A stretch of 64,000 bases of DNA from Sutcliffiella horikoshii (GTDB lineage Bacteria > Bacillota > Bacilli > Bacillales > Bacillaceae_I), in NCBI GenBank assembly GCA_001636495.1, contig KV440964.1:698666-762665 (forward strand). The letters run 5' to 3'. Positions 25,232 through 62,886 of this stretch are shown here, piece by piece; the stretch's first letter is position 1, and each line of letters opens with the position of its first letter. Position numbers and translations under genes: made by a program. The notes below the pieces were generated by a model. It saw nothing but the letters and a program-made list of their open reading frames with translations. It had not been told where the DNA came from and made no database searches.

Positions 25232-25345
25232 ACAATGGATATATTTAATTAACAATGGATAAGTGTCCGGTTACAATGGATATCTGCAATTAACAATGGA
25301 TAAATGACCAGTTACAATGGATATATTCATTTTACAATGGATAAA
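25232..25345. repeat. Phased short-repeat array 1 (core ACAATGGATA)
   Basis: The core ACAATGGATA occurs six times, at 25232, 25252, 25273, 25293, 25314 and 25334, with spacings of 20, 21, 20, 21, 20 bases. The units alternate between ACAATGGATAT and ACAATGGATAA, so a 41-bp dimer is repeated three times. The array lies between the gndA terminator and the 3' end of the convergent cyclase gene. The stretch 25127-25458 has no gene. Confidence 0.9.
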
Positions 25346-25458
25346 CGGCATTCCGCGAAATATTGTTGTACACAAACCCCAAAAATCCCACCAATCCACA
25401 CAAAAAACCACCCTACCCCAACTTTCCCGGGGCAGAGTGGCCAAAAATATCACCAAAC

Positions 25459-26073
25459 TTACTTCATATCCATCAAAACAATACGTGCTGGTGAAGCATC
25501 CACACCGCTCAGCTTCAACGGCGCTGCACACATGATGTACTCGCCTTCTGCGATATCCTTCAGGCGTAAGCCTTCAATAATGATCACGCCACTCGCAAAA
25601 AGTGTCTTGTGTGTCGGGTGGCCTTCCTGGCTGCGCTCGATGCCAAGTGCATCCACACCAACGCCGCTCACGCCGATCTCAGCCAAGTAGTTCGCAGCGT
25701 CTTCCGCCACGAACACAAAATCAAAGTTAAACTCTTCATCAAAAGAGTTTTTCGTTTTAAATAAAAGGAAATCGTCCTTCTTTATATCTAGGTCTTTGAT
25801 ATCCTCCACAGTAATCCGGTCCTCAACAGCTGTCAGGTCGAACACTTTACATGGACCGACGAGCTTGTCCAACGGCAACGTCTCGATGGTTTCCCCATCC
25901 ACCACCATGTGAAGAGGTGCGTCCACATGTGTGCCAGTGTGAACATCCAGCTCCAGGCGGGTTTCTGTTACATAACCGTTCGTGTTGGTCGTTTGTTTCG
26001 GTTGTTTTTCCGGTTTATTTTTATAAACAGGCATTCCCGTGAAAATCGGGGAAGATACGTCATATACTTTCAT
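25459..26073 (-). CDS. Cyclase-family metal hydrolase (kynurenine formamidase-like)
   Basis: A 204-residue protein with the cyclase-family metal motif HTGTHVDAPLH at residues 45-55 and the second conserved region DALGIERSQEGHPTHKTL. Known members include arylformamidase, which opens N-formylkynurenine, and isatin hydrolase. No tryptophan-degradation genes are nearby, so the substrate is open. The ATG start follows AAGGAG. It lies downstream of zwf on the same strand, about 95 bases away. Confidence 0.85.
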   Translation of the reverse strand: MKVYDVSSPIFTGMPVYKNKPEKQPKQTTNTNGYVTETRLELDVHTGTHVDAPLHMVVDGETIETLPLDKLVGPCKVFDLTAVEDRITVEDIKDLDIKKDDFLLFKTKNSFDEEFNFDFVFVAEDAANYLAEIGVSGVGVDALGIERSQEGHPTHKTLFASGVIIIEGLRLKDIAEGEYIMCAAPLKLSGVDASPARIVLMDMK

Positions 26074-26168
26074 GTGTAAAAAACTCCTTTCGAATTTGGC
26101 TCGTGCAAGAGCAACCGCAACCGCAACCGCTCAAGAGTCAAGCGGGCCTGTACGCCTCCAGCCTACAC

Positions 26169-27647
26169 CTATAGTGGCCACCAATGGAAGCCGTCTTTAT
26201 GAAGCAGTTCATCCGCCTGCTTCGGACCCATGGAACCTGATTCGTAGTTCGGGAAGTCGAACGATCTTGTGTTTTCCCAGGCTTTCGAGATCTCATCGAT
26301 AAAGCTCCAGGATAGTGCCACTTCATCCCAATGCGTGAAGTTGGTCATATCACCGCGCATCGCATCATAGATAAGGCGCTCGTAAGCTTCCGGTGTATTG
26401 ATGCCGTCGATGCAGTTATTCGTATAATCAAGCTTGATTGGTGTCGTTGTAATGTCCTTACCCGATTTCTTGGCATTTAAATGCAGGGTGATGCCCTCTT
26501 CCGGCTGGATGTTGATCACAAGAAGGTTCGGGTCCACCTTTTCCCCGCGGTTGTAGTACAGGTTCATTGGGATATCCTTGAATTGCACGACCACTTTCGT
26601 CGACTTCTCGCTCATTCTTTTTCCGGTACGGATGTAGATCGGTACCCCTGCCCAGCGGAAGTTATCGATCAGAAGCTTCCCGGCAACATACGTTTCCGTA
26701 TTGGAATTGGTATCGATAGAGTTTTCGTCGCGGTAGCTCTGTACCTGGTTGCCATCTGCCATTCCTGAACCATATTGACCGCGGACAAAATAATCCTCCA
26801 CATCATCTGGGCCGATTTTGCGCATGGCACGAAGCACCTTCACCTTTTCGCTGCGAATCTCTTCAGGATTCAGCTTAATTGGAGGCTCCATCGCAAGCAG
26901 CGCCACCATCTGTAGCATATGGTTCTGCACCATATCTCTCAATGCACCGGAGCTTTCGTAGTAGCGTCCGCGGTCTTCCACGCCCAACACTTCACTGGAC
27001 GTAATCTGGATATTGGAGATGTAACGGTTATTCCATAGCGGTTCGAAAAGAGCGTTGGCAAAGCGGATTACCTCGATGTTCTGCACCATTTCTTTTCCAA
27101 GATAATGGTCAATACGGTAGATTTCCGACTCATCAAAGGCTTCCCGGATTTCTGCATTCAAATCTTTTGCAGAAGGAAGGTTATGACCGAACGGCTTTTC
27201 GATGACAAGACGCTTCCAGCCGTCGGTTTCCGTCAACCCTTCCGATTTCAGATTAGAAGCGATTGTACCGAAGAATTCTGGCGCCATCGCTAGGTAGAAT
27301 ATTCTGTTCCCATTTGTCTCATAATCGGAATCCAAATCACCTAGTAAACCTTTCAGTTGCTGAAAGGATTCACTGCTTGTTACATCAAAAGGATGATAAT
27401 AGAAGTGGGAGCTGAATTCCTCAACATTCCCGTCCCCATTTGCCACCTCATTAACAGAAGCAGACACGTTCGAACGGAACTCCTCATTGGATAGCGGACG
27501 TCTTGCAACGCCGACAACCGCAAAGTTTTTGGAGATGCTGCCGTTTTTATAGAGACGATAGATCGAAGGATAGAGCTTACGTTTCGCTAGATCTCCTGTT
27601 GCACCAAAAATGACAATCAAGGAAGTCGGATTTTCTTTTTTATTCAC
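26169..27647 (-). CDS. zwf: Glucose-6-phosphate 1-dehydrogenase
   Basis: A 492-residue enzyme with the NADP-binding motif FGATGDLAKRKLYPS (residues 14-28) and the substrate motif YRIDHYLGKE carrying the catalytic histidine near residue 178. It makes 6-phosphogluconolactone from glucose-6-phosphate, the first step of the oxidative pentose-phosphate route that GndA continues. The full family length is present. A GAGG-type site precedes the ATG. Confidence 0.96.
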   Translation of the reverse strand: MNKKENPTSLIVIFGATGDLAKRKLYPSIYRLYKNGSISKNFAVVGVARRPLSNEEFRSNVSASVNEVANGDGNVEEFSSHFYYHPFDVTSSESFQQLKGLLGDLDSDYETNGNRIFYLAMAPEFFGTIASNLKSEGLTETDGWKRLVIEKPFGHNLPSAKDLNAEIREAFDESEIYRIDHYLGKEMVQNIEVIRFANALFEPLWNNRYISNIQITSSEVLGVEDRGRYYESSGALRDMVQNHMLQMVALLAMEPPIKLNPEEIRSEKVKVLRAMRKIGPDDVEDYFVRGQYGSGMADGNQVQSYRDENSIDTNSNTETYVAGKLLIDNFRWAGVPIYIRTGKRMSEKSTKVVVQFKDIPMNLYYNRGEKVDPNLLVINIQPEEGITLHLNAKKSGKDITTTPIKLDYTNNCIDGINTPEAYERLIYDAMRGDMTNFTHWDEVALSWSFIDEISKAWENTRSFDFPNYESGSMGPKQADELLHKDGFHWWPL

Positions 27648-27708
27648 AGATAAGAACCTCGCTTTATGTACTAGTCTCGAAAGAATGTGCTATCACAATC
27701 GTTTGATT

Positions 27709-27738
27709 ATGATAAACAATTATGTAAATAAGTAACAA
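27709..27738 (-). promoter_or_regulatory. Candidate zwf promoter
   Basis: On the minus strand, TTGTTA (27738-27733), an 18-base spacer and TATCAT (27714-27709). The leader would be about 55 bases. The rest of 27648-28014 shows no convincing gene or repeat. Confidence 0.4.
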
Positions 27739-28014
27739 TTTCACTTAAATAGTATGAAACATTATGGAAAAGTACTACCCAAATATTTTATATGGAAGTG
27801 GGTAGGAATTCAATATATTAATGAAGGTCTTTCTCAGGAACAAGAATCTTTACGTTCCACTATAACACATCCAGCCATCAATTCCTGAATGATAGGCTCG
27901 TCGTTAGTATGAAAAAATACAGGCAAAACCATGCATCCACAAAACTTCCCAACCCCAAAAAGAATTCCAATATGATAAAGTAGAAATGACGGAAAGGAAC
28001 GGAGGGTCATGCAA

Positions 28015-28686
28015 GTGAGAAATCTAAAGGGTGAATGGAAGTCTTTGTTGGAAAAGGAAGCCTCCAAGGACTATTACATAAGGTTAATGGACTTTCTCGA
28101 CCATGAATATGCCTCTAGTAGCGTCTACCCGCAAAAAGAGGCCATTTTTTCGGCGTTCCAGATGACAAGCTATGAGGACGTGAAGGTTGTCATCATCGGA
28201 CAAGACCCTTATCATGGCAAAGATCAGGCCCACGGTATGAGTTTTTCGGTGCAAAAGGGGATGCGGGTACCTCCATCTTTGAAAAATATCTACAAGGAAC
28301 TGCAGGAAGACCTGGGGATAGCCCCTGTCCAGCACGGATTTTTAATGGAGTGGGCTGTTCAAGGTGTGTTATTATTAAATACGGTTTTAACAGTCAGGGA
28401 ACGGGAACCGAACTCCCATAAAGGGAAAGGCTGGGAGCGCTTTACAGATGAAGTGATACAGATGTTGAATGTCAGGGAAAAACCTGTGATATTCCTCCTT
28501 TGGGGCAAGCATGCCGAACAGAAGGAAGACATGATAACAAACAGCCATCACTACATCATCAAAAGCCCTCACCCTAGTCCATTTTCCGCACGAAAAGGAT
28601 TTTTTGGAAGCAGGCCCTTTTCTAAAGTGAATGACATATTGGCTGAAATGGGCGAGGAAGCGATCGATTGGCGATTAACACCATAG
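28015..28686 (+). CDS. ung: Uracil-DNA glycosylase
   Basis: About 223 residues with family-1 UDG motifs: the water-activating GQDPYHG at 62-68 (Asp64) and HPSPFSA near residue 187. It removes uracil from DNA as the first step of base excision repair. GTG at 28015 is chosen because GGAGG at 28001-28005 is 9 bases upstream; the ATG at 28009 would leave only 3. The position near ywdI and ywdK matches the B. subtilis ywd region. Confidence 0.95.
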
Positions 28687-28724
28687 AAATGAAAAAACAA
28701 GATTAGTTAGAGGAAGTGCACGAC

Positions 28725-29531
28725 ATGCAAACGTGGAAAACAACAATACAACATATAGTCGGACACCGGTATTTTATGAATGCCGTCATGTTCGTCATCC
28801 TATTGAATGCGATTTTGATAGGGGTGGAAACCTACCCGGACCTAAGAGCGGACTATTACGATATTATCCATGGGTTTGAAGTTTTCTTTTTATGGTTCTT
28901 TACCATAGAGATCATTCTGAGAATGTTGGCGGAAAAAAAGATTCACCACTTCTTTCGCAGCAAGTGGAATCTCTTTGACTTTTTCATTGTGGCAGGTGTT
29001 CTCTTATTCAGCGGAACGTACTTCATTTCCGCGATTCGGATCCTGAGGGTATTCCGGGTCCTGCGCGCCATTACAGTCGTTCCATCCTTGCAAAGGCTTG
29101 TGACGGCATTCCTGAAGACGATCCCGTCCTTGGGCACCATCATGATGCTATTATCTTTAGTATTCTATATTTTCGCCGTATTGGGTGTCATGTTCTTCGG
29201 TGAAATCTCACCGGAATATTTCGGGTCGCTCCACCTGGCCCTTGTGACACTATTCCAAGTGATTACGCTCGAATCATGGGCAAGCGGAATCTTCCGTCCC
29301 ATTTTTGCTGAAAGTCCTTTGTCTTGGGTCTACTTTGTTTCCTTCATCCTTGTTGGAACTTTCATCGTACTGAACCTGATTGTCGGGGAAATCCTCAACA
29401 ACATCCAAGAAGCGAAGGAAGAAGAATTGAAGGAAGAGAAGATGGAAGTCAGTAAAAAAGAGCTGGCAAAAATCACCGACGAAATTGCCGAGTTGAAGCA
29501 ACTGTTGATAAACAAAGAGAAACACAATGGA
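28725..29531 (+). CDS. NaChBac-type voltage-gated sodium channel
   Basis: A 269-residue six-segment channel subunit. S4 has arginines at every third position (R105, R108, R111, R114 in SAIRILRVFRVLRA). The pore loop carries the filter TLESWAS (181-187) that defines bacterial sodium channels of the NaChBac/NavBp group, and a C-terminal coiled coil (EEELKEEKMEVSKKELAK) would hold the tetramer. In alkaliphilic Bacillus this channel brings in sodium for pH homeostasis, motility and chemotaxis. ATG at 28725 follows GAGGAAG. A chemoreceptor gene follows, and a terminator separates them. Confidence 0.92.
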
Positions 29532-29548
29532 TGATGATTTTTATGAAG

Positions 29549-29582
29549 AACACGGAGGCAAATAGCGCTCCGTGTTTTTTTC
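29549..29582 (+). terminator. Rho-independent terminator
   Basis: AACACGGAG with CTCCGTGTT and a T-run, after the sodium channel gene. Confidence 0.85.
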
Positions 29583-29604
29583 TAAAATAAAATCATAGCA
29601 ATAC

Positions 29605-29632
29605 TAAAGACCTAGAGTGATTATGCCGAAAA
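29605..29632 (+). promoter_or_regulatory. Candidate sigma-D promoter of the chemoreceptor gene
   Basis: TAAA, 16 bases, then GCCGAAAA, close to the motility sigma factor consensus (TAAA / GCCGATAT). It lies 83 bases before a methyl-accepting chemotaxis gene, a usual target. Confidence 0.65.
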
Positions 29633-29667
29633 TAGAAGAAAGAGAACAACGTGAGAATCGATTCTTG

Positions 29668-29681
29668 TGCAAACGGTTTCA
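29668..29681 (+). promoter_or_regulatory. cre-like site
   Basis: TGCAAACGGTTTCA matches the CcpA consensus at all but one defined position. It lies between the sigma-D-like promoter and the chemoreceptor start, where binding would block transcription. Confidence 0.4.
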
Positions 29682-29714
29682 TGTTAGAAGGTAGTTTTAC
29701 TAGGGGGAAGAAGA

Positions 29715-31415
29715 ATGGGGAGCATGAGGAAAAGGTTATTCGTATTAATTTGTTTGATCGGGGGTATCGGTCTTGCTGCTTCCATAGTGATATGGGTGAA
29801 TGGCATTCAGGTGCAAAAAGGGGTCAATGAGCTGGATGAGATCACCAAGCTGAATGAAAGTTATTTTGAGCTGGTGCAATCCTATCAGAGCACCTTAGCA
29901 GATATGTATTTTGTCGTATCAAATGGATACTCCAAAGCGCATATTACAAAAATTGAAGAAAATCTGGTGCAAACCGAAGAGAAGCTACAAGATTTCGAGC
30001 CTTATTTTGCGGAATTTGAAGAATTAGGTCAGTGGAAGCAGTATTTTGTTGTTTCACATGAAACATTGTCAAAACAATTCGACACTATCAGCGATGTTTC
30101 CAACGCAGCCAACATGGATCGACTGCGCATTACGACATCGGAAGACTTGGCAAAAGCACGGAATCAGATAGAGCGGGCGAATGATGGTGGCATGGAGTTC
30201 TTACAGGCATACAATGATGAAAATAGACAAGTCGTCCAGGCTAAAGTTTCCGCTACGGAACGTTGGACCTTGTTGACACTTGCCATTCTTGTGGTAGTGC
30301 CAATCCTTGCGTTGTTATCGTTCCGAAAGGCTTTCAACAAAGGTGTCAATCAGGTGCTGCGACGGGTGAACGCCTACCAGGAAGGGGACTTTCTGCATAA
30401 AGCTCCTCCATCCGTGCGAAAAGATGAATTCGGTCAAATAGAGGATGCTCTGACAACGATGGGAAGAAACATTGAGCAGCTGATGAAGGGAAGTATTGGC
30501 GCGAACCAACGCCTACAGGTTGTGATGCAGGAGCTGTTGGTTGTAGCCGAAGATAACCTGAAAGAATCGGCTGGAATCAAGCGACGATCCGAGCAGGCAA
30601 CCGAAAAAGTATCTATGCAGTACGAGGGGACGACTGCCATATCTGCGGTCACCGAGCAGGCGTCGGCCAGTACGCAAGAGATATACAGCATCGTGGATGA
30701 AATGAAGCGCAACCTGGAGAGCATGGAGGCACTATCGAAAAGAGGGGCAGAATCGCTTCAGCAGATGGTAACCATCATGCATCAATCCTCAGCAGAAACA
30801 GAAACAATCGTAGAAAGATTTTCAAAAATAAAAGAAGATATTGATGAAGCAAACAGCTTCCTTAAAGGCATAACGGAAATCACGACACAGACCAATCTGC
30901 TTGCCCTTAATGCCTCGATTGAAGCGGCACGTGCGGGAGAGGCAGGAAAAGGATTTGCTGTAGTGGCAGAAGAGATTCGCAAGCTCTCCGGACAGACCGA
31001 TCTCTTTTCCAAACAAATCAACAGCATCACCGGCCGCATTCAGGAAGACACGAATGAAGTACTAAAAGAATTTCAACTATTCAAGGAAACAATTGAGCAG
31101 ACAAACGAAAAAAATGAAGCATCTGCAAGCCTGTTCCAGGAAATCGCCACAAATAGTGGAACGCTGTTGGAACAGGGAACCCACATTACCGTCACGATGG
31201 AAGAGATCAGCATGGGTGTTAATGAAATCGTCCATTCTGTGAATGATTTGGTCGCTTCCTCTTCTGACCTGACGCAGGAAATGGTCGAGGTTGTGAAGGC
31301 GGCCGATCATCAAGTGGACCTTTCCAACAACATGAGACGAACCGTCGATACGGTGAAAGAGACCGCTGAAGACCTGGCCGCAAGCATCGCCTCCATAAAC
31401 ATGAATAAATCGTGA
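29715..31415 (+). CDS. Methyl-accepting chemotaxis protein
   Basis: 566 residues. A membrane segment at about 8-28 is followed by a helical extracellular domain (30-182) of four-helix-bundle type, a second membrane segment at 185-203, a HAMP domain to about 260 and a cytoplasmic signalling coiled coil. The hairpin tip is [20 protein letters not shown] at 391-410, and [16 protein letters not shown] follows. The ligand is unknown. Its neighbour is the sodium channel gene; in B. pseudofirmus a chemoreceptor co-localises with the homologous channel, so a functional pair is possible. Confidence 0.93.
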
Positions 31416-31423
31416 ACAAACAG

Positions 31424-31453
31424 CCTGTGGAGTGGATTCTCCGCAGGTTTTTT
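31424..31453 (+). terminator. Rho-independent terminator
   Basis: CCTGtGGAG pairs with CTCCgCAGG (loop TGGATT region), followed by TTTTTT. Confidence 0.8.
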
Positions 31454-31526
31454 ATGTTACGGGAGGGTGGAAAATGGTAGAATGAAAAATGGACAAAGCT
31501 TGTACGGGAAAAGGGAGGGGGAAAGG

Positions 31527-31730
31527 ATGGCTGTGCAGATAAACTGCTTGAAATGCAAGCATTACTATGTCACATGGGATGCAAAGTTTCCGAAAGGCTG
31601 CCGAGCATTCGGTTTTAAAACGAACCAGGTGCCTTCCGTTGCTGTCCTTCGCTCTTCCGGAAGCCCGTGCTTAAAGTTCGACCCAAAAGATTCACCAATA
31701 AAACCCGGCCAGAACGGGTACTATGTGTAA
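31527..31730 (+). CDS. Small four-cysteine protein, possible zinc-binding
   Basis: 67 residues with Cys7-x2-Cys10, Cys25 and Cys48, a pattern that could hold one zinc ion. I do not recognise a function. Such short proteins are sometimes labelled uracil-DNA glycosylase in databases, but none of the UDG motifs is present. ATG at 31527 follows AGGGAGGGGG. It is 13 bases from the next gene, so the two are probably one transcript. Confidence 0.7.
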   Translation: MAVQINCLKCKHYYVTWDAKFPKGCRAFGFKTNQVPSVAVLRSSGSPCLKFDPKDSPIKPGQNGYYV

Positions 31731-31743
31731 AAGGAGCTTCTTT

Positions 31744-32265
31744 ATGAAAAAAATAAATTATTTGCCGTGGATCATTGGCATTTCCATCGCAGTCAATGCA
31801 GTGGTAGTAGTACTGTTCTTCCTGCCACAATATGAAGGACTGGCCCACGTCGACTTGACCTTCCTGCCAATGATGAATGCAATCTTTAACAGCTTCACCT
31901 TCGTCTTTTTAGTGTGTGCCCTTATTGCAATCAAGAAGAAAAATATTACCGTGCACCGTCGTTTCATTTTGGCGGCATTCTCGTCCACGGCCTTGTTCTT
32001 GGTTACATATGTGACGTACCACTCCCTAACAGAGTCCACGCCGTTCGGCGGAGAAGGCATCATCCGTTCGATTTACTTTTTCATTCTGTTGACTCATATC
32101 GTGTTGGCAGTCGTGATTGTGCCGCTTGCGTTATATTCTTTGGCAACAGGCCTTAGCATGCAAAAGGAACGCCACCGCAAAATCGCACGCTGGACAATGC
32201 CATTGTGGTTATATGTGAGCTTGACCGGAGTTATTGTGTATTTGATGATATCGCCGTATTACTAA
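31744..32265 (+). CDS. DUF420 membrane protein (YozB/CtaM-like)
   Basis: A 173-residue protein with five membrane segments and conserved histidines at VHRRFI, VTYHSL and LLTHIV plus the ERHRKIARWT loop, typical of DUF420. The CtaM homologue in Staphylococcus is needed for active aa3-type cytochrome oxidase, so an assembly role in respiration is likely. ATG at 31744 follows AAAGGAG. Confidence is high for the family and moderate for the role. Confidence 0.82.
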   Translation: MKKINYLPWIIGISIAVNAVVVVLFFLPQYEGLAHVDLTFLPMMNAIFNSFTFVFLVCALIAIKKKNITVHRRFILAAFSSTALFLVTYVTYHSLTESTPFGGEGIIRSIYFFILLTHIVLAVVIVPLALYSLATGLSMQKERHRKIARWTMPLWLYVSLTGVIVYLMISPYY

Positions 32266-32336
32266 AGATTTTTAGTGGGTGCAGAGATCAACAGCGGCGT
32301 ATAACCCGCCAAACAGAAAAGGAGGGATGAGGAAGC

Positions 32337-32687
32337 ATGAGCATTACACTGGATAAGGTCCTAGAACGCCTGGAGTCGGAGCTGGAAAGAGCCATGGACA
32401 CGGGAAATGTACAGAAAAAGCGCGAGCACCTGGCTGCGATGAAATCCTTATGTGAGCTGGCACTGGATGTGGATGTTGAAGGAGCGGACCTTGATCATGC
32501 TCGCGGCGGAAGGGTAAGTGCCCCGGCGGCAATTCCTGCTGCCCGCACGAGTCACCAAGCACCAATACCCTACCAACAAGCAGCACCAATCTACACACCA
32601 CCAACCCAATCGCCACCAATCGCAAACGTCCCATCCAAGCCAATCAAAGAAGACGACGCAAACGGCGACTCCCTCTTTGACTTTTAA
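32337..32687 (+). CDS. ywdI: YwdI-family protein
   Basis: A 116-residue protein with a helical N-terminal half (residues 1-45, charged and amphipathic) and a proline/glutamine/alanine-rich, probably disordered C-terminal half ending in DSLFDF. The N-terminal pattern and its place between ung and ywdK match B. subtilis YwdI. The function is unknown. The acidic-aromatic tail looks like a short linear binding motif, but no partner is known. Confidence 0.7.
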   Translation: MSITLDKVLERLESELERAMDTGNVQKKREHLAAMKSLCELALDVDVEGADLDHARGGRVSAPAAIPAARTSHQAPIPYQQAAPIYTPPTQSPPIANVPSKPIKEDDANGDSLFDF

Positions 32688-32697
32688 AGAGGGGTCA

Positions 32698-32722
32698 TAA
32701 AGAGGGGTCAGACCCCTCTTTA
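32698..32722. repeat. GGGGTCAGACCCC palindrome, copy A
   Basis: A 25-bp palindrome from TAAAGAGGGGTC to GACCCCTCTTTA. A second half-unit (AAAGAGGGGTC) stands just before it at 32686. It probably also terminates the ywdI transcript. Confidence 0.75.
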
Positions 32723-32775
32723 GTTAACTAAAGAATTGGCTTTGTTAAAGTTAGTTGTTGGCTATGACCTGTTTC

Positions 32776-32908
32776 AAGCTGGTGATTGGAGCAAAAGGCG
32801 TAGACTCCAGCGGGAGAGCAGCGACAATCTTGAGACCCGCAAGTGTTGCGAGGAGGCTCAAGGTCGCCCCGCGGAAAGCGAAGCCTATTGCGGAAATCAA
32901 CAGCGACG
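32776..32908 (+). repeat. Palindromic repeat family R, copy 7
   Basis: Class B copy (CTTGAGACC / GGCTCAAGG). The stretch 32688-33029 has no gene and consists mainly of this repeat and the palindrome before it. A tail-like remnant (GATCAACAGCGGCG) also lies near 32287-32300. Confidence 0.85.
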
Positions 32909-33029
32909 TTTAACAGAGCAAAAAAATTAAGGAGTGTCGCTATTCTTCCACACACCACAACTTACCATACTAAAAACGGCGCGGTAACTTAAACTATAAA
33001 CACCCCAGTAAGTAATGGAGGTGTTTTAC

Positions 33030-33329: not shown

Positions 33330-33450
33330 TTTCGACAAAATGCTCTTACTGCTTTCTTTGACGAGGCGGTAGGGGCGTTTTTGTTTGCTTAAATTTTAAA
33401 AAACATAAAACACGACGGACGGTTAGCAGTATAAAAACGGAATGTTAAGA

Positions 33451-33658
33451 ATGAAGGCCTGTGTGAGGAAGAAATAGTGTGGGCGGGGTCTTCATAGGCG
33501 GTATGAAGACCTGTGTGAGGTAGAAATAGTGTGAGTGAGGTCTTCATAGGCGGTATGAAGACCTGTGTGAGAAAGAAATAGAGTGAGTGAGGTCTTCATA
33601 GGCGGTATGAAGACCTGTGTGAGGTAGAAATAGAGTGGGCGAGGTCTTCATAGATGGT
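33451..33658. repeat. Tandem array of four 52-bp units
   Basis: Units start at 33451, 33503, 33555 and 33607, an exact 52-bp period. Each unit has the inverted repeat ATGAAGACC...GGTCTTCAT (the first unit has GGCC) around a GTGTGAG-rich centre, so each could form a hairpin with a 9-bp stem. The array lies in the gene-free stretch 33330-33717. There is no long open frame through it. Confidence 0.9.
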
Positions 33659-33717
33659 ATTACCCCTACTCTGGAGCGATCTATTTATCTAAAAAGAAAA
33701 GGGAGGAAGTGAACATT

Positions 33718-43616: not shown

Positions 43617-43675
43617 TAATGGACGGACTAGGACTGAGGCTCGCGTGAGTTTTGTGAGCAGCCGGTCGCATAAAT

Positions 43676-43717
43676 AAAAGCCCAAGAGGATGGTTGGATC
43701 CTTTAGGGCTTTTTATT
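43676..43717 (+). terminator. Rho-independent terminator
   Basis: AAAAGCCC...GAGGAT pairs with ATCCTT...GGGCTTTT. It ends the ywfO-ywgA transcript. Confidence 0.8.
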
Positions 43718-43779
43718 TTTATAAGTGAGGGGCGATGGGTGGAGGATGCATACGTAGTGGATGGTCAAATTGTACCATT

Positions 43780-43875
43780 GTCACAATAACTGCGAAAAAA
43801 GTTACAATCAACGCTTGAAAAGTCACAATCCCACTCGTAAAAGTTACAATAACCTCTCAAAAAGTCACAATAACT
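43780..43875. repeat. Phased short-repeat array 2 (core GTYACAAT)
   Basis: GTCACAAT and GTTACAAT alternate at 43780, 43801, 43822, 43843 and 43864, exactly 21 bases apart. Each of the first four units ends in a run of four to six A, so the A-tracts are also in phase with two helical turns. The stretch 43718-44005 has no gene. Confidence 0.9.
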
Positions 43876-44005
43876 TAAACTCCTACGAAATCCACCGTTA
43901 ATTTCGTCTGAAACTCCCCCGATCGCCATATAAAAACGCTTAGCCGCTCCCCTAAAAGGGAATGATACCTACAAAAAGCCCATAAAAAAGAGGAGTAACA
44001 TACAT

Positions 44006-51127: not shown

Positions 51128-51143
51128 TCGTCTAGTATTTTAT

Positions 51144-51192
51144 AGGCCCTGTTTTCTGAGTGCGAAAGTGCTTTGGATACGGGGCTGTTTTT
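51144..51192 (+). terminator. Probable terminator of speB
   Basis: AGGCCCTGT with AC-GGGGCT (imperfect), then TTTTTG. Confidence 0.5.
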
Positions 51193-51251
51193 GTGCTTAA
51201 TATAAGTGGAATTTAGTTGGATTTTGGAAAGAATTACTTTAGTTCTCTTCT

Positions 51252-51471
51252 AATCCCTTCACAAGATTGTGGAATCCCGTCATATCTAGTGAAAACCCCG
51301 TCACGATTCATTCTCTTTCACTAAGTTCTAGCCAAGGAAGAAGGGAAGAAGATCGTAATCCCGTCATAACGAGTGATAATCCCATCACAAATAAAGAAAA
51401 TCCCATCATAACTCCTCAGAATCCCTTCACAAGGACCCATAATCCCGGCACAAACCCAATTGCCCGTTTAC
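51252..51471. repeat. Phased short-repeat array 3 (core AATCCCNTCACAA)
   Basis: AATCCC (one AACCCC) starts at 51252, 51273, 51294, 51357, 51378, 51399, 51420 and 51441. All steps are 21 bases, and the one gap is exactly 63 (3 x 21). Each is followed by a T-C-A-Y-A-like tail. The stretch 51193-51663 has no gene. Confidence 0.9.
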
Positions 51472-51663
51472 AAATTAAAAATCCTTGTCCCTAACCTTCA
51501 TACAGCCTGCCGTGGACAATTTCTCCTCCCAAAATTCATCAAATTTCCCTCCCCAAACAACATCCTCTATTGAACTCCCACCACCACTTGTTTTATACTA
51601 TGAAGGTTATAGAAAAATCGACGCGAACGAGTAAGCGTTAAAGATAAAAGGATGTGGGGCCGG

Positions 51664-55115: not shown

Positions 55116-55141
55116 GCAACAACCTTCTCCTTTCAAAAAAA

Positions 55142-56347: not shown

Positions 56348-56467
56348 GCTTTTCCCTCCCGCAAACACGTCCATATAGTTTTTACGTAACCGCGCCATCT
56401 TATCCTATAACTAATTACCCATACCCACATTCCCAGAAAATAAGCCACCAAAATTCAATTAAATATG

Positions 56468-56496
56468 TTGACTGAATGCTCATTCAGTTATAAGAT
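56468..56496 (+). promoter_or_regulatory. fadF promoter with FadR-like operator
   Basis: TTGACT (56468) and TAAGAT (56491) are 17 bases apart. The palindrome ACTGAATGCTCATTCAGT (56471-56488) fills the space between them. It resembles TetR-family FadR sites built on TGAATGA/TCATTCA, although the half-site spacing is shorter than the published 18-bp consensus as I recall it. Confidence 0.72.
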
Positions 56497-56614
56497 AAAG
56501 ATAAATTACTAAAGTTCTGAAAATTATATTCTTTCCAAACATTGAGGCTCTTTCGTTTGAAAAATCACGTAAACAGCCGACAGAAAAAAGGGGACACGAA
56601 GGGAGTGGGGAGAT

Positions 56615-58729
56615 GTGAGTAACGGTTTGTTAATTGCCAATTGGATTTTAACGATTATTGTAACCGCTTACGCATTATCGCTATTTGTTTACTTGATCAG
56701 AACGAGAATTCAGTTCATCAAGTTAGGGAAAAAAGTTGAATTCGACAACAAAGTAAAAGAACGATTAGACAAAGTGTGGGTCAACGTTTTTGGCCAGAAA
56801 AAATTATTGAAGGATAAGAAAAGTGGGATCATCCACGTCATGTTCTTCTACGGATTCCTGATGGTCCAGCTTGGGGCGCTTGACCTGATCATCAAGGGAC
56901 TTGTACCAGGTGCACGCTTGCCGCTCGGACCGCTATATCCGGCGTTCACTTTCTTCCAGGAACTTGTCACACTCATGATCCTGGTGGCGGTGGTATGGGC
57001 CTTCTACCGTCGTTATATTGAAAAACTTGTACGTCTGAAGAGAGGCTTTAAATCTGGTCTTGTTCTACTGTTTATCGGAGGCTTGATGCTTTCCGTCCTA
57101 TTTTCAAACGGTATGGGCATCATCTGGCATGATCATGGCCTTACTTGGAGTGAGCCCGTTGCATCCGTCTTCGCCTTCCTATTCGGCTGGATCAACGAAA
57201 CGGCAGCCATTGCATTGTTCTATATCGGCTGGTGGATTCACCTATTATTCCTATTAACATTCTTGGTCTATGTGCCACAATCCAAGCACGCGCATTTAAT
57301 TGCAGGACCTGCGAATGTATTTTTCCACCGTACAACCAACGCTGGAAAACTGGAAAAAATCGATTTTGAAGACGAAACACAAGAAACTTTCGGTGTTGGG
57401 AAAGTGGAAGACTTCACCCAGTACCAATTGATTGATATGTACGCCTGTGTCGAGTGCGGACGCTGTACCAATATGTGTCCGGCAACCGGAACAGGAAAAA
57501 TGCTGTCACCGATGGATTTGATTATAAAAATCCGTGATCATCTGACAGACAAGGGAGCGGCCATCACGTCCAAATCCCCTTGGGTACCGACTTACGCGTT
57601 CAATAACACGCAAGGAAATCAGCTTGCCATGGCGGCTGCTGGAAAAGGTGCACAAGAAAGCGCGGCAACGATCGAATACAGCCCGAGCTTGATCGGCGAT
57701 GTCATCACAGAAGAAGAGATTTGGGCATGTACGACCTGTCGTAACTGTGAAGACCAATGTCCAGTAATGAACGAGCATGTTGATAAAATCATCGACCTTC
57801 GCCGTTACCTAGTTCTGACAGAAGGAAAAATGGATGCCGATGCACAGCGCGCGATGACCAACATCGAACGCCAAGGAAATCCTTGGGGCCTTAACCGCAA
57901 AGAGCGCGAAAACTGGCGCGACGCAGCACCAGAAGTAAGCATTCCTACGGTAAAAGAAATGAAAAAAGCTGGCGAAGAATTTGAGTACCTGTTCTGGGTT
58001 GGGTCCATGGGATCTTTCGACAACCGTTCCCAGAAAATCGCCATCTCTTTTGCAAAATTAATGAACGAAGCTGGCGTGAAATTCGCGATTCTCGGCAACA
58101 AGGAGAAAAACTCCGGAGATACGCCACGCCGCCTAGGAAACGAATTCCTTTTCCAAGAGCTAGCAACGAGCAATATTGCGGAATTTGAGAAAAACGAAGT
58201 CAAGAAAATCGTCACCATCGACCCGCATGCCTATAACATTTTCAAAAACGAGTACCCGGATTTCGGCCTCGAAGCCGAAGTCTATCACCATACAGAAGTC
58301 TTAGCCGAACTTGTAAAAGAAGGCAAACTGACTCCAGTACACGAGGTAAAAGAGACCATCACGTACCACGATTCCTGCTACCTCGGCAGATACAACGAAG
58401 TCTACGAGCCACCGCGTGATATCTTAAAAGCGATCCCAGGCGTCAAAGTGGTCGAAATGAACCGCAGCCGCGAAACGGGCATGTGCTGTGGAGCCGGCGG
58501 AGGACTCATGTGGATGGAAGAAGACACAGGCACACGCGTCAACGTCGCCCGTACCGAACAAGCACTCGAAGTCGCACCAAGCGTCATCAGCTCCGGCTGT
58601 CCTTACTGCCTGACCATGCTATCTGACGGCACGAAAGCCAAGGTAGTAGAAGAAAACGTAGGCACCTACGACGTAGCAGAACTACTTGAACGCTCCGTCA
58701 TCGGCGAAAAACAAGAATTAGTATCCTAA
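56615..58729 (+). CDS. fadF: Membrane iron-sulfur oxidoreductase FadF
   Basis: A 704-residue protein. Five or six membrane segments in the first 240 residues resemble a NarI-like haem b domain. Two 4Fe-4S motifs follow (CVECGRCTNMCP near 285 and CTTCRNCEDQCP near 373), then two CCG-type domains (CYLGRYNEVYEPPR, and MCCGAGGGLMW near 628). It probably moves electrons from reduced electron-transfer flavoprotein to menaquinone during fatty-acid oxidation. GTG start, GGGAG 9 bases upstream. In B. subtilis the gene is under FadR, matching the operator here. Confidence 0.88.
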   Translation: MSNGLLIANWILTIIVTAYALSLFVYLIRTRIQFIKLGKKVEFDNKVKERLDKVWVNVFGQKKLLKDKKSGIIHVMFFYGFLMVQLGALDLIIKGLVPGARLPLGPLYPAFTFFQELVTLMILVAVVWAFYRRYIEKLVRLKRGFKSGLVLLFIGGLMLSVLFSNGMGIIWHDHGLTWSEPVASVFAFLFGWINETAAIALFYIGWWIHLLFLLTFLVYVPQSKHAHLIAGPANVFFHRTTNAGKLEKIDFEDETQETFGVGKVEDFTQYQLIDMYACVECGRCTNMCPATGTGKMLSPMDLIIKIRDHLTDKGAAITSKSPWVPTYAFNNTQGNQLAMAAAGKGAQESAATIEYSPSLIGDVITEEEIWACTTCRNCEDQCPVMNEHVDKIIDLRRYLVLTEGKMDADAQRAMTNIERQGNPWGLNRKERENWRDAAPEVSIPTVKEMKKAGEEFEYLFWVGSMGSFDNRSQKIAISFAKLMNEAGVKFAILGNKEKNSGDTPRRLGNEFLFQELATSNIAEFEKNEVKKIVTIDPHAYNIFKNEYPDFGLEAEVYHHTEVLAELVKEGKLTPVHEVKETITYHDSCYLGRYNEVYEPPRDILKAIPGVKVVEMNRSRETGMCCGAGGGLMWMEEDTGTRVNVARTEQALEVAPSVISSGCPYCLTMLSDGTKAKVVEENVGTYDVAELLERSVIGEKQELVS

Positions 58730-58747
58730 ACGGAAAATTGGTATAAC

Positions 58748-58880
58748 ACCGCTGTTGATTTACGCATCGGGCTTCGCTTTCCGCGGGGCGCCTGTGGAGC
58801 CTCCTCGGCAAGCCTGCGGGGTCTCCACTATGCGCTACCTCCCGCTGGAGTCTACGCCCTATGCTCCAATCATCAGCTAG
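58748..58880 (-). repeat. Palindromic repeat family R, copy 12
   Basis: Minus-strand copy of a third class: the inner arms are GTGGAG and CTCCAC, not GGGAG/CTCCC or CTTGAG/CTCAAG. The outer arms are CTGTTGAT / ATCATCAG. Confidence 0.88.
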
Positions 58881-58952
58881 GATATTTATAGAAAAATAGA
58901 TTCCGGCATACAAGGTGTACGTAGTTCTCTGCGTGCACCATATGCTTTTCAC

Positions 58953-58978
58953 CAAAACTGAGCGACCGTTCAGTTTTG
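58953..58978 (+). promoter_or_regulatory. TetR-type operator candidate upstream of the thiolase gene
   Basis: CAAAACTGA and TCAGTTTTG form a 9-bp inverted repeat around GCGACCGT. The inner ACTGA.CG..CG.TCAGT symmetry is like the operators of fatty-acid TetR regulators and shares ACTGA/TCAGT with the site before fadF. Confidence 0.55.
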
Positions 58979-58992
58979 ATGGAAGTAAAAAT

Positions 58993-59006
58993 TGTAAGCG
59001 GTAACA
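58993..59006 (+). promoter_or_regulatory. CcpA cre box
   Basis: TGTAAGCGGTAACA fits every defined position of the cre consensus. Just downstream of the operator-like palindrome, it suggests glucose repression of the beta-oxidation operon. Confidence 0.8.
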
Positions 59007-59030
59007 AAGTGTTTATAGGATTTCCCCTTA

Positions 59031-59109
59031 TTGATTGGAGTGTAGGGGGTGAGACTCCTACGGGAGGAAGGGACAGGGAAGACCCCGCAACGGAAATCAA
59101 TAAGGGAGT
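59031..59109 (+). repeat. Palindromic repeat family R, copy 13 (short form)
   Basis: The outer arms CCCCTTATTGATT and AATCAATAAGGG pair perfectly although both differ from other copies. The centre right of GACCCCGCAACG is deleted. Confidence 0.85.
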
Positions 59110-59135
59110 CAGAAAAACATCTTAATTATTAAAAT

Positions 59136-59271
59136 TTCCCTAGTTGCATGGAGAGCAAGGTGTGAGACTCCTGCGGGGGAGAAAAGGTTGGTTGAGACCC
59201 CGCAACGAAGTGAGGAGACTCAAGCACCTTCCCGCGGAAAGCGAACACCTGGAACGCAAAGCAACTGGGAG
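59136..59271 (+). repeat. Palindromic repeat family R, copy 14
   Basis: The outer arms TCCCTAGTTGC / GCAACTGGGA and the inner arms TTGAGACC / GACTCAAG are again paired but differ from copy 13 next to it. The stretch 58730-59319 has no gene. Confidence 0.85.
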
Positions 59272-59319
59272 TTAACGCAAACACTTTAATTTTTTCAAAT
59301 TAAAAGGAGGAAATTACCC

Positions 59320-60498
59320 ATGGGAAAAACAGTAATCGTTAGCGCAGTCCGCACACCAATCGGTCGATTCGCAGGAGGACTTAGCACCCTAACCGCATCA
59401 GACCTAGGAGCAACAGCCATCAAAGAAGCACTACAACGAGCAAACCTATCAGGCAACCAAGTAGGCGAAGTCATCATGGGCACCGTCCTACAAGGCGGCC
59501 AAGGCCAACTACCATCACGACAAGCCTCCCAAAAAGCAGGCCTCCCGTGGGAAGTGCGCACCGAAACCATCAACAAAGTATGCGCATCCGGCATGCGCAG
59601 CGTCACACTCGGCGACATCCTCATCCGCTCCGGTGAAGAAGAAGTCATCGTAGCAGGCGGAATGGAATCCATGAGCAATGCGCCATACATGCTCCCTAAA
59701 GCAAGATGGGGCCTTCGTATGGGAGATAGCACCGTGCAAGATTTGATGGTCCATGACGGTCTTACTTGCACATTCACAGGCGTTCACATGGGCACATACG
59801 GAAACAGTGTCGCAAAAGAAATGGAAATAACTCGTGAAGACCAGGACGCATGGGCATTCAGAAGTCATCAACGCGCGATTGAAGCAACCGAAAAAGGTAT
59901 TTTTGACGCGGAAATCGTTCCAGTTTCTGTCCCGCAGCGAAAAGGCGATCCAATCATCGTGAGCAAGGATGAGTCACCTCGTAAAGATACAACTCCTGAA
60001 AAGCTTGCGAGCTTAAGACCGGCATTTGACCATGACGGAACAATCACGGCAGGCAACGCGCCAGGCGTAAATGACGGAGCTAGTGCACTTGTGCTGATGA
60101 GCGAAGATCGTGCGGAAAAAGAAGGGAAAAAGGTGCTTGCAACCATCCTTGGTCATGCCTCCATCGCAGTGGAAGCAAAGGATTTCCCTAAGACTCCTGG
60201 ACTTGTCATCACGGAACTTTTAAAGAAAACAGGAACAAAGCTTGAAGACATTGATCTTTTTGAAATAAACGAAGCATTCGCGGCGGTCGCGTTGGCATCA
60301 GCCAACCTAGCAGGACTGGATCTCGAGAAAGTGAATGTAAACGGCGGTGCAGTAGCACTTGGACATCCAATCGGAGCAAGTGGGGCACGCATCATCGTTT
60401 CCTTGATCCACGAGCTGAAGCGTCGCGGCGGCGGACTTGGAATTGCCTCTATCTGCTCAGGCGGCGGACAGGGCGATGCCATTTTGATTCAAGTATAA
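59320..60498 (+). CDS. mmgA: Acetyl-CoA acetyltransferase (thiolase)
   Basis: A 392-residue thiolase with acyl-accepting Cys88 in [10 protein letters not shown], the His of [10 protein letters not shown] near residue 348 and the second Cys in CSGGGQGDA near 378. It cleaves acetoacetyl-CoA or longer 3-ketoacyl-CoA. AAAGGAGGAAAT precedes the ATG. It heads a run thiolase-hydroxyacyl-CoA dehydrogenase-acyl-CoA dehydrogenase equal in order to B. subtilis mmgABC. The name is by analogy. Confidence 0.93.
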
Positions 60499-60526
60499 GC
60501 AGAAACTTTTTAGGAGGAATCATAAC

Positions 60527-61381
60527 ATGACAATTCAAAAAGTAATGGTAATCGGCGCAGGACAAATGGGCTCAGGCATCGCGCAGGTTTGTGCGATGGC
60601 CGGCTATGACGTATATATGAACGACCTGAAACAGGATTTTCTGGATCGTGGGCTTGCGGGCATCACGAAAAATTTAAGCAGATCCGTGGAAAAAGGCCGC
60701 ATGACAGAGGACGAAAAAACGGCTGTTCTGTCCCGCCTGCAATCGACGACAACACTTGAAGATGCAAAACATGTCGACATCGTCATTGAAGCGGCAGTGG
60801 AAAACATGGACATCAAAAAGAAGATTTTCGCCGAGCTTGACCAGCATGCTCCGGCTCATGCCATTTTGGCAACCAATACATCTTCCCTTCCTATCACGGA
60901 AATCGCGGCAGCAACGGGCCGACCGGAAAAGGTGATCGGAATGCACTTCATGAATCCTGTTCCTGTCATGAAGCTTGTGGAGATCATCCGTGGCTTGCAG
61001 ACGGCAGACGAAGTGTACGGTGCAATTGAAGATATGACGAAAAAGCTTTCCAAAGTACCGGTGGAAGTGAACGACTTTCCAGGCTTCGTATCCAACCGCG
61101 TGTTGATGCCAATGATCAACGAAGCCATTTTCACCGTTTACGAAGGTGTGGCAACGCCGGAAGCGATCGATGAAGTCATGAAGCTTGGGATGAACCACCC
61201 GATGGGGCCGCTAACACTTGCCGATTTTATCGGACTCGACACATGCCTGTACATCATGGAAACCTTGCATGAAGGCTTTGGCGATGACAAATATCGCCCA
61301 TGTCCGTTGCTTCGCAAATATGTGAAAGCAGGCTGGCTGGGACGCAAGACGGGCCGAGGTTTTTATACGTACGAGACGTAA
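60527..61381 (+). CDS. mmgB: 3-hydroxybutyryl-CoA dehydrogenase
   Basis: A 284-residue enzyme with the NAD-binding motif [10 protein letters not shown] (10-19), the catalytic His-Glu pair ([17 protein letters not shown] near 140) and the C-terminal dimer domain ([16 protein letters not shown]). It oxidises 3-hydroxyacyl-CoA to the 3-keto form that the thiolase splits. AGGAGG is about 8 bases before the ATG, and the gap to the thiolase gene is 28 bases. Confidence 0.95.
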
Positions 61382-61432
61382 GGATGGCATGAGGGGAATT
61401 TTTTCTAGACAGCAGGAGAGGGGACAAATAGC

Positions 61433-62569
61433 ATGAATTTACGTTTTACAGAAGAGCAGGAAATGGTCCGGAAAATGGTGCGCGATTTCGCGGAAACCGA
61501 GATAGCACCTTATGTGGAAAAAATGGAAGAGGGCGAATTCCCTCGTGAGATTTTGCGAAAAATGGCGGACCTTGGCTTGATGGGGATGACAATTCCGGAA
61601 GAGTACGGCGGAGCGGGAATGGACTTTCCTTCCTACATCATCGCGATCAATGAGCTTTCCCGTGTGAGCGCGACAGTCGGTGTAATCCTTTCCGTGCACA
61701 CGTCAGTCGGGACGAATCCAATTCTTTATTTTGGCACAGAAGAACAGAAACAGAAATACGTCACAAAGCTTGCGTCCGGCGAGTACCTTGGCGCGTTCTG
61801 TTTGACCGAGCCGAGTGCGGGATCTGATGCAGGAAGCCTGAAAACGCGTGCGGTGAAGCAAGGTGACCACTATGTGCTGAACGGCGCGAAGGTGTTCATC
61901 ACAAACGGTGGGGAAGCGGACACATACATTGTCTTCGCATCCACGAATCCTGAGCTTGGATCCAAAGGGGTTTCCGCATTCATCGTCGAAAAGGACACGC
62001 CGGGATTTGTCATCGGAAAAGATGAGCACAAAATGGGCTTGCACGGTTCGAAAACGGTCCAGCTGACGTTTGAAGATGCGAAGGTCACTGTGGAGAACCT
62101 GCTTGGAGCAGAAGGAGAAGGCTTCAAAATTGCAATGGCGAATCTTGATGTCGGCCGTATCGGCATCGCGGCGCAGTCCCTTGGTATCGCAGAAGCAGCA
62201 GTGCAGGCGGCAACAGCCTATGCAAAAGAGCGAGTCCAGTTCGGCAAACCAATCGCTGCTCAGCAGGGTGTTTCTTTTAAACTGGCAGACATGGCGACGG
62301 CGGTGGAAGGTGCTAGATTGTTGACTTACCGTGCGGCCAACTTGCGAGCATTAGGCAAGCCTTGCGGAAAAGAAGCCTCCATGGCAAAACTTTTCGCATC
62401 ACAGACGGCAATGAACGTGGCAATCGAGGCGGTCCAGGTGTTCGGTGGTTACGGCTACACAAAGGATTATCCGGTGGAACGCTACTTCCGTGACGCGAAG
62501 GTTTGTGAGATTTACGAAGGAACGAGTGAGATTCAGAGAATGGTGATTGGGAAGCATTTGGTGAACTGA
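61433..62569 (+). CDS. mmgC: Acyl-CoA dehydrogenase
   Basis: A 378-residue flavoenzyme with ACAD signatures: [17 protein letters not shown], the flavin loop and the C-terminal [10 protein letters not shown], where Glu362 is the catalytic base of the short-chain group. It makes trans-2-enoyl-CoA and passes electrons to ETF and on to FadF. AGGAGAGGGGAC precedes the ATG. It is third in the operon. A close paralogue starts at 63049. Confidence 0.95.
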
Positions 62570-62675
62570 TGGACGGTTAGGTTTGGTGAATGAGTGGGGA
62601 TCGACGTTTGAGAATTGCGGCGAGTTGAATTTGGAGGATGAGACTGACTTAGAAATTAGGTGGCTCCTGTAAGAA

Positions 62676-62886
62676 TGTCCGAAGATTTGCGGAAGTTGTC
62701 CGAAGTTTTTCGATTCTTGTCCGAAGTTTTCGCAAAGTTGTCCAAAGATTCCACGAGATTGTCCGAACCAATTTTTCAAATGTCCAAACACACCATCAAA
62801 GTTGTCCGAACACGCTTATAGATTGTCCGAACCACCTCCAAAAGAATGCCAAAAGTGTCCGAAAGCCCTTTTCAAATGTCCGAACG
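62676..62886. repeat. Phased short-repeat array 4 (core TTGTCCGAA)
   Basis: TGTCCGAA or TGTCCAAA starts at 62676, 62697, 62718, 62739, 62760, 62781, 62803, 62824, 62856 and 62877; a degenerate unit (TGCCAAAA) is at 62847. The steps are 21 except one of 22 and one of 32. The array fills the gap between the two acyl-CoA dehydrogenase genes (62570-63048 has no gene). Confidence 0.92.

Follow-up and report, generated by a model that had tools for sequence, protein, structure and literature searches.

Arrays of short direct repeats in gaps between genes of Sutcliffiella horikoshii probably act as platforms of one-face sites for one or more putative host sequence-specific DNA-binding proteins; judging from sequence patterns, we put the probability of this reading at roughly 0.58. 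Of the three readings in the original prediction, phased protein binding has the strongest support, through constraint on the cores at three slots (S2, S3 and S4). The arrays belong to a published class, which is itself not new (Subirana and Messeguer 2021, PMC8161180) and which the prediction had taken to be without a name; the parts of that paper compared deal with tandem repeats in Bacillus whose size is constant (20-21 or 52 nt), whose sequence varies and whose function is enigmatic.

Arrays of the window and their families

The window, the whole stretch of 64,000 nucleotides that was analysed, contains the following features.

25127..25458, no strand: gap around array 1, whose flanking genes face each other
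25232..25343, plus strand: array 1, family F4, six ACAATGGATA units with spacings 20, 21, 20, 21 and 20
33449..33656, plus strand: 52-bp-type array of four units
43617..44005, no strand: slot S2, the gap of array 2
43780..43871, plus strand: array 2, family F2, five GTYACAAT units, every spacing 21
51128..51651, no strand: slot S3, the gap of array 3
51252..51306, plus strand: array 3, family F3, block 1, three AAYCCCNTCAYRW units at 21 bp
51357..51453, plus strand: array 3, family F3, block 2, five AATCCCNKCAYAA units at 21 bp, 63 bp past block 1 and in register with it
62570..63048, no strand: slot S4, the gap of array 4
62676..62884, minus strand: array 4, family F1, ten TTYGGACA units in minus-strand reading, arranged as two units, a 32-bp step and eight units

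Arrays 1 to 4 begin where they had been predicted and lie, as proposed, in gaps between genes, outside every gene called in this analysis. Array 3 has the eight units claimed for it when AACCCC at 51294 is included, yet not as one uniform run: the spacings (21, 21, 63, 21, 21, 21, 21) correspond to three units, a three-period gap and five units. On the forward strand, array 4 reads as ten TGTCCRAA units from 62676, with spacings of 21 (five times), 22, 21, 32 and 21. In the gap of array 1, the DNA left of the array is rich in G and T and the DNA right of it in A and C. By eye, array 2 lies downstream of a terminator-like hairpin, and the 52-bp array at 33449 is an addition to the four arrays originally noticed.

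None of the four cores, at first described as unrelated, is a one-off: each is a family that recurs at several loci of the genome; we followed eight such families (F1-F8) in one genome, all outside protein genes. F4 has four further sampled loci, F1 has a 31-32-bp step at the equivalent place in 8 of 11 sampled arrays, and all six sampled F3 arrays have two blocks separated by a step of 62-63 or 83-84 bp. Between loci, spacers of the same index are more alike than spacers of different index in F1 (0.378 vs 0.314, p=0.001, 8 loci), F3 (0.324 vs 0.276, p=0.002, 6 loci) and F2 (0.562 vs 0.513, p=0.033, 4 loci). With this likeness and the recurrence of the families, the idea of a single mechanism that creates a new core each time is not supported.

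The window has four arrays of at least four units in 49 gaps (13.7 kb), and 200 dinucleotide shuffles had none. In 968 gaps of the Sutcliffiella genome (1.664 Mb sampled of 4.26 Mb), we found 57 arrays of at least three units and 37 of at least four units with a 20-22 bp period, against means of 1.1 and 0.03 in 30 shuffles; the counts are far above chance level. The sampled arrays are dispersed over the 4.25-Mb contig. Over the first 864 kb, counting coding sequence as well, 42 arrays of at least three units fall at 20-22 bp, and other bands (three bp wide, clear of 20-22 bp and its double) have 2 to 14. The 52-bp-type arrays of at least three units number 29 in the 1.664 Mb, the one at 33449 among them. 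Across 71 argS loci, which are a single orthologous region in different Bacillaceae genera and thus not independent sites, noncoding arrays of at least four units number 14 at 19-20 bp, 52 at 20-21 bp, 21 at 21-22 bp, 18 at 51-52 bp and 17 at 52-53 bp; bands at twice the period (39-43 bp) have 4-8, and the remaining bands tried have 0-2. These band counts bear out the proposal that the spacing is kept across differing cores, here and in other Bacillaceae genera. The spacings of 97 arrays (168 at 20, 219 at 21 and 4 at 22) show tightness inside the 20-22 bp range, the only one that the array detector takes.

Core constraint, slot exchange and genomic setting

At the three slots where constraint was measured, in alignments anchored on the window's own cores, most core positions are near-fixed between species and the spacers drift, which is new. 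In S4 (7 sequences, ten units), the pairwise difference within the core TGNCCRAA is 0.00 at positions 0, 1, 3, 6 and 7, 0.06 at position 4, and 0.33 and 0.40 at the variable positions 2 and 5, with 0.24 in the spacer and 0.30 in the flank. In S2 (6 sequences, five units), six of the eight core positions have 0.00 and two vary (0.40, 0.12), with 0.26 in the spacer and 0.27 in the flank; gapped pairs amount to 0.000 in the array vs 0.340 in the flanks. The three sequences of S3 differ by 0.067 in the core, 0.308 in the spacer and 0.273 in the flank. Variable positions within an otherwise fixed core look like those of a protein motif. The unit spacings of S4, including the 32-bp step, are identical in all six F1-carrying relatives; the exceptions are unread units, a 21-bp deletion in L053 and a 1-bp deletion in L057.

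Array sites persist while their contents swap, 21-bp for 52-bp arrays included, and this exchange is also new. Among the eight other Sutcliffiella loci spanning S2, five have the orthologous array (L051, L052, L054, L055, L056), L058 has different arrays, and in L053 and L059 the array was not found. A 52-bp array replaces array 3 at S3 in L053-L056, and an F3 array takes the place of array 4 at S4 in L052. In a collection with one genome per species, F1, F2 and F3 are common to several Sutcliffiella genomes.

Arrays occur in 14 of 64 convergent but only 5 of 101 divergent gaps (Fisher p=0.002; gaps holding 52-bp arrays only are excluded). The F2 core is found on both strands relative to neighbour genes of the same direction, thus array orientation is not tied to gene direction. 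We compared the 78 proteins adjoining arrays of at least four units with each other and found no recurring family beyond insertion sequences (IS) and two distant pairs.

In the Sutcliffiella genome, array-bearing gaps are G/T-rich on the left and A/C-rich on the right, and the skew extends into the fourfold-degenerate sites of adjoining genes, fading over about 1 kb. This strand-composition footprint in coding sequence is new and is shown for the Sutcliffiella genome only; it was not reproduced in other genera, where the 71 argS loci (one orthologous region repeated) have a coding skew excess of +0.009 to -0.168 over bins, and G020, with 7 array gaps in 400 kb, has -0.076, +0.050, +0.031, +0.099 and +0.030. 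The left-right skew of the gaps themselves is present in G020 (6/7) and absent in G016 (2/6) and G018 (0/1), where 21-bp arrays are few (6 gaps in 560 kb and 1 in 240 kb, respectively).

An IS3-like element lies in or against these arrays in all 19 copies found, in 5 of 16 genomes. The targeted families are F1 and F8, and in F1 the element enters the core at a single point and resembles a guest more than the source of the array. Such targeting is new, and among the titles and abstract openings of the literature found there is no report of IS insertion into such arrays.

Proposed protein platforms and alternative explanations

As platforms, the arrays would be cassettes of non-palindromic candidate sites to which one or more host proteins bind. 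Because sites recur after two helical turns (20, 20.5 or 21 bp), several protein copies would lie on one DNA face, where they may touch each other and build an ordered complex; we infer that a protein binds the arrays and assembles cooperatively. Several cassette families with different cores stand side by side in one genome, selection would hold core letters and spacing while spacers drift, and cassettes occupy a limited set of gaps, seldom divergent, where one can be replaced by another, the 52-bp (five-turn) class included. The cellular role would most likely be chromosome organisation or insulation between transcription units. Against this platform reading, eight core families in one genome require several proteins or one flexible recogniser. 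Irregular spacings (n=52) were rejected as proof of one-face phasing: 25 fall close to even multiples of 10.5 and 5 close to odd ones, and four of these five are F1's 32 bp. The odd-turn step is essentially an inherited F1 trait, and the case for one-face phasing depends chiefly on multiples of 21, a pattern that stepwise copying would also produce.

It is possible, if unlikely, that each family is a selfish or mobile miniature element with cores that serve a transposition or recombination enzyme encoded elsewhere, the gaps being merely places where insertion is harmless. Dispersed families with traces of common descent (the same-index spacers of F1, F3 and F2), slot occupancy that varies between species and the scarcity in divergent gaps all fit such elements. 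However, an unsystematic look at the arrays noticed no terminal inverted repeats or target duplications, core positions are fixed at orthologous sites beyond expectation for dead insertions, and the IS in F1 has the appearance of a guest. We consider it unlikely that the 21-bp and 52-bp classes are exchangeable versions of a single device which structures the chromosome and repeatedly makes the DNA on the approach to the array single-stranded, for example through stalled machinery or breaks that are then resected; the keto-rich strand would run toward the array on both sides, into the neighbouring genes, and repair would exchange arrays by gene conversion.

Neutral satellites, with 20-21 bp repeats made and cores homogenised by replication slippage or unequal exchange, are quite improbable. 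They agree with the description of the published class as tandem repeats in the compared portions of PMC8161180, with near-identical two-unit superrepeats in some arrays of other genera (L066, L103) and with the 21-bp deletion within the array of L053. Yet unit number and spacing at S2 and S4 are nearly constant over species with spacers diverged by 24-26%, degenerate core positions within an array are not homogenised, and the period is restricted to 20-21 and 52 bp, plus the double of 20-21.

Phased intrinsic bending, in which repeats curve the DNA axis and protein is unnecessary, is very improbable as the function of the arrays. A calculation with wedge values predicts, per 105 bp, a bend of 70 degrees for arrays (39), 55 for left flanks and 43 for array-free gaps (368), but any two-turn repeat sums bends in phase. 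Against their column-permuted selves (means 68 vs 55, mean rank 0.36), just 3 of 39 arrays stand out at p<0.05, which leaves this second original reading weakly supported. Action within transcripts is extremely improbable: transcription of 52-nt class repeats is reported for B. coagulans (PMC8161180 and PMC8625621, in the portions compared), but core orientation does not follow gene direction. Folded as RNA together with their flanks, arrays are no more stable than controls (49 arrays have a mean z of -0.76 and 45 control gaps one of -1.81, relative to full shuffles), and Rfam had no match in the window at the gathering threshold.

Relation to known repeats and meaning

CRISPR arrays have repeats of about 23-50 bp and unique spacers beside cas genes; the present arrays differ in their 8-17 bp cores, their 20-21 bp period and their dispersal over many loci. 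In plasmid centromeres and iterons, such as ParR/parC of pSK41, direct repeats of about 20 bp seat an oligomer, next to rep or par genes. The Sutcliffiella arrays likewise are direct repeats at about two helical turns, but are scattered over the chromosome in many copies, with several unrelated cores per genome. Like REP/BIME (Tobes and Pareja 2006, PMC1525189, as far as compared), they are dispersed extragenic repeats where particular IS land, here at F1 and F8. Unlike palindromic REP/BIME units, they are direct, non-palindromic and helix-phased; a 9-mer search with up to 1 mismatch gave only 13 inverted matches within 160 bp of 97 arrays. Repeats of a 2008 study, as described where PMC2884548 cites it, are alike in size and in tandem and dispersed occurrence.

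In the literature found, as far as its contents were compared, only papers by Subirana and Messeguer deal with such arrays. The repeats in the compared parts of PMC8161180 match ours in length, noncoding location, several families per genome and coexistence of both size classes, but Sutcliffiella units share only an 8-17 bp core and their spacers drift. The published definition there (20-21 nt, at least 4 repeats, most spacings within 1 nt) covers our arrays apart from the 63-bp gap of array 3 and the 32-bp step of array 4, and F1-F8 are several same-size families in one genome outside protein genes, as described there. For most arrays of a given species, a short characteristic sequence is described there as common to every repeat; in the Sutcliffiella genome each family has one core, but no single sequence unites all the families. 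The published arrays were detected with SATFIND and grouped into families with MALIG. Families are described as species-specific, unlike F1, F2 and F3, which cross genomes held as separate Sutcliffiella species; family sharing between two close species is reported there too. The layouts, slot exchange between classes, composition footprint and IS targeting were not found in the portions compared.

The constrained core letters point toward a protein partner and provide bait with which to find one. That 21-bp and 52-bp arrays can take each other's place in a slot links two classes whose relation is left open in the parts of PMC8161180 compared, and IS whose landing site follows the core offer an example from nature of changing target choice. 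In the strand-composition footprint, events at array sites leave a mark that was unexpected and can be measured.

Repeat arrays in the window and the genome

The 64-kb window spans positions 698,666 to 762,665 on the main contig (genome size 4.26 Mb), and its argS protein shares 95–97% identity with Sutcliffiella horikoshii and close strains. All four arrays of the original prediction are present, with the layout of the third and fourth corrected below.

Repeat arrays of the window (window coordinates)
From 25232: array 1, ~20.5-bp period, core family F4
From 43780: array 2, ~21-bp period, core family F2; its gap is slot S2
From 51252: array 3, ~21-bp period, core family F3, in two blocks of 3 and 5 units, 63 bp apart; slot S3
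From 62676: array 4, ~21-bp period, core family F1, with a 32-bp step before the last two units; slot S4
33449–33656: 52-bp repeat array whose units each contain two short arms in inverted orientation; 28 others of its class in the sampled genome

The genome was sampled in stretches totaling 1.664 Mb, window included, which gave 968 gaps (minimum length 60 bp, 298 kb in all); genes came from a simple codon-usage script, and gap borders, gene starts most of all, are approximate. Arrays with a 20–22 bp period exceed the shuffled level (57 with at least three units, shuffle mean 1.1), as do those at 51–53 bp (29, shuffle mean 0.6). In other Bacillaceae, across 71 loci of the argS region, noncoding arrays with four or more units number 14, 52, and 21 in bands at 19–22 bp and 18 and 17 in bands at 51–53 bp; double-period bands hold 4–8 arrays and the remaining bands 0–2. 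The observed arrays are real. One Bacillus timonensis locus (L066) has arrays of 19 and 11 units at 19495 and 20851 (GACGCAAA, 20 bp), which show a two-unit superrepeat.

The arrays were at first thought to match no named element, yet the accessible text of Subirana and Messeguer 2021 (PMC8161180) already describes Bacillus repeats of 20–21 nt and 52 nt, constant in size and variable in sequence, and the window arrays are members of this class as described there. The same text remarks that 20–21 nt equals two helix turns and proposes nucleoid proteins or small RNAs.

Among gaps of at least 200 bp, array-bearing and array-free (those with 52-bp arrays alone excluded), 21-bp-type arrays occur in 14/64 convergent, 30/272 tandem, and 5/101 divergent gaps (Fisher p: convergent versus divergent 0.002, convergent versus tandem 0.037, tandem versus divergent 0.11). 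On a non-random sample, arrays are denser toward the origin: sampled DNA no farther than 600 kb from dnaA (at 554 kb) amounts to 864 kb and contains 40 of the 57, and the remaining 800 kb contains 17. A position inside operons is possible for some arrays. Two, at 170505 and 173979 of the main contig, stand between apparent purine-biosynthesis operon neighbours, named by eye from protein starts.

Core families, slots, and constraint

Eight core families were traced across the genome sample.

Core families in the 1.664-Mb sample
F1: TTYGGNCA; 11 arrays, 8 of them with a 32-bp step (31 bp in one)
F2: ATTGTRAC; 10 clusters, two being F4 arrays (114118, 570926)
F3: AATCCCNTCAYAA; 6 two-block arrays
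F4: TATCCATTGTAA; 5 arrays; period 20–20.5 bp
F5: 4 arrays; 20 bp
F6: 3 arrays; 20 bp
F7: 1 array
F8: 2 arrays

Two of the three F1 arrays without that step are fragments adjoining an IS copy (1005643 and 3529388), and five of the eight F2 clusters outside F4 have five matches each. By eye, an ACTTTT-like stretch adjoins the core in the consensus of F1, F2, F5, and F6. Spacers of the same index are slightly more similar between loci than cross-index spacers, which suggests that entire cassettes were probably copied in the distant past, with later divergence.

Array sites can keep an array while its content changes, as with F1 versus F3 at S4 and F3 versus 52-bp steps at S3. At S4 the window has an F1 array. 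The left flank of this slot was found in eight other Sutcliffiella loci, of which six carry F1, L052 an F3 array, and L058 just two F1-like cores, 21 bp apart. At S3, an F3 array is found in the window, L051, and L052, and an array with 52-bp steps in L053–L056 (L053 and L055 also have one odd step); none was seen in L058 or L059. Slot S2 has an F2 array in the window and five other loci, other arrays in L058, and none seen in L053 or L059. The S2 arrays of L058 (Sutcliffiella rhizosphaerae, 3326–3900) are composite, a TATCGAAA block followed by an AATCTCYA block, and recur as ~300-bp units. Downstream of argS in other genera, 24/70 loci, near-relatives included, have an array of at least three units within 800 bp, some of which may overlap coding sequence; their cores are of several different kinds, and elsewhere in these loci arrays number 0.04 per 800 bp.

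Pairwise differences in core, spacer, and flank are 0.099, 0.238, and 0.297 at S4 (seven sequences), 0.065, 0.259, and 0.273 at S2 (six), and 0.067, 0.308, and 0.273 at S3 (three). Most core positions in these slots change little or not at all, and a few are as variable as spacers. Two indels were seen within the S4 and S2 arrays, a 21-bp deletion in L053 and a 1-bp deletion in L057; the remaining S4 spacings match among sequences, some degenerate units being unread. Phased protein binding, by a putative binder, is the best supported of the originally proposed readings.

Strand composition around the arrays

Within 120 bp on each side, G-C skew is +0.237 left and -0.168 right of 21-bp arrays: G is up, C and A are down, and T is slightly up on the left, with the mirror image on the right. 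Left skew exceeds right in 41/49 21-bp loci and 23/27 52-bp loci, versus 176/388 array-free control gaps split at the middle; the few divergent gaps were without this skew (3/5 and 2/4). In the argS region of other genera the counts are 26/33, 14/19, and 146/340, respectively, with right-flank skew near zero.

In the source genome, the footprint extends into coding sequence. At fourfold-degenerate sites around 76 array gaps, the left-minus-right G+T excess over context-matched controls (permutation p) is 0.100 at 0–150 bp (p 0.002), 0.075 at 150–300 bp (0.002), 0.053 at 300–600 bp (0.007), 0.015 at 600–1200 bp (0.13), and 0.012 at 1200–2400 bp (0.13). Up to 600 bp it is positive with both array types (p 0.002–0.025). 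Over this distance it is also positive in two disjoint sample parts, on each replichore, and when gaps are restricted to 300 bp or longer (p 0.002–0.124). The 52-bp loci at 1200–2400 bp (+0.038, p = 0.010) count against a clean decay, and the per-locus effect is modest (left above right in 47/76 array gaps versus 181/391 controls). For genes of at least 600 bp, successive bins to 600–1200 bp give +0.081, +0.019, +0.038, and +0.025 at 3′ ends (p 0.001, 0.17, 0.002, 0.024) and +0.045, +0.018, +0.020, and -0.010 at 5′ ends (p 0.039, 0.20, 0.11, 0.75). The data examined from other genera did not reproduce the coding footprint. Deamination of an exposed strand with its 3′ end toward the array would yield the skew pattern; alternatively, the arrays may have settled at places already skewed.

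An insertion element in array cores

A 1.42-kb element, presumably IS3-like from its layout, encodes HTH (PF01527) and integrase-core (PF00665) proteins. A search with its 25-base end, which would miss copies with more than 3 mismatches there, gave 7 copies in the source genome (G000) and 12 spread over four (G005, G006, G012, and G013) of the 15 further genus genomes searched (loci L196 and L180–L198). Every one of these 19 copies sits inside or directly beside a 21-bp array. The landing site tracks the array core, F1 in four genomes and F8 for a diverged relative in G005. Thirteen copies follow TT in register with an F1 core, and the distance from an F1 core start to the junction is exactly 23 bp in 12 of them and 45 bp in one; the far side, readable in seven, carries the remainder of the core. 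The four copies of the relative in G005 sit in F8-type cores, each with an F8 core start exactly 25 bp ahead of it, and two copies in G013 abut F1 arrays in opposite orientation, their far side beyond the locus. Four-bp target duplications occur in 10 of the 11 copies readable on both sides. Copies 16741 and 18206 of the source contig (L185, L189) stand ~46 bp apart with identical flanks and are probably one event, with a tandem duplication within an F1 array likely behind them. Because 62 of the 115 noncoding TTYGGNCA sites in the genome sample are already in pairs or arrays (chance of 7/7 = 0.013), a preference for arrays over lone cores in the source genome is only moderately supported.

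Core constraint, slot exchange, the composition footprint, and IS targeting, of which we found no report in the accessible text of PMC8161180 or the literature searched, are, within that literature, new beyond the published class.
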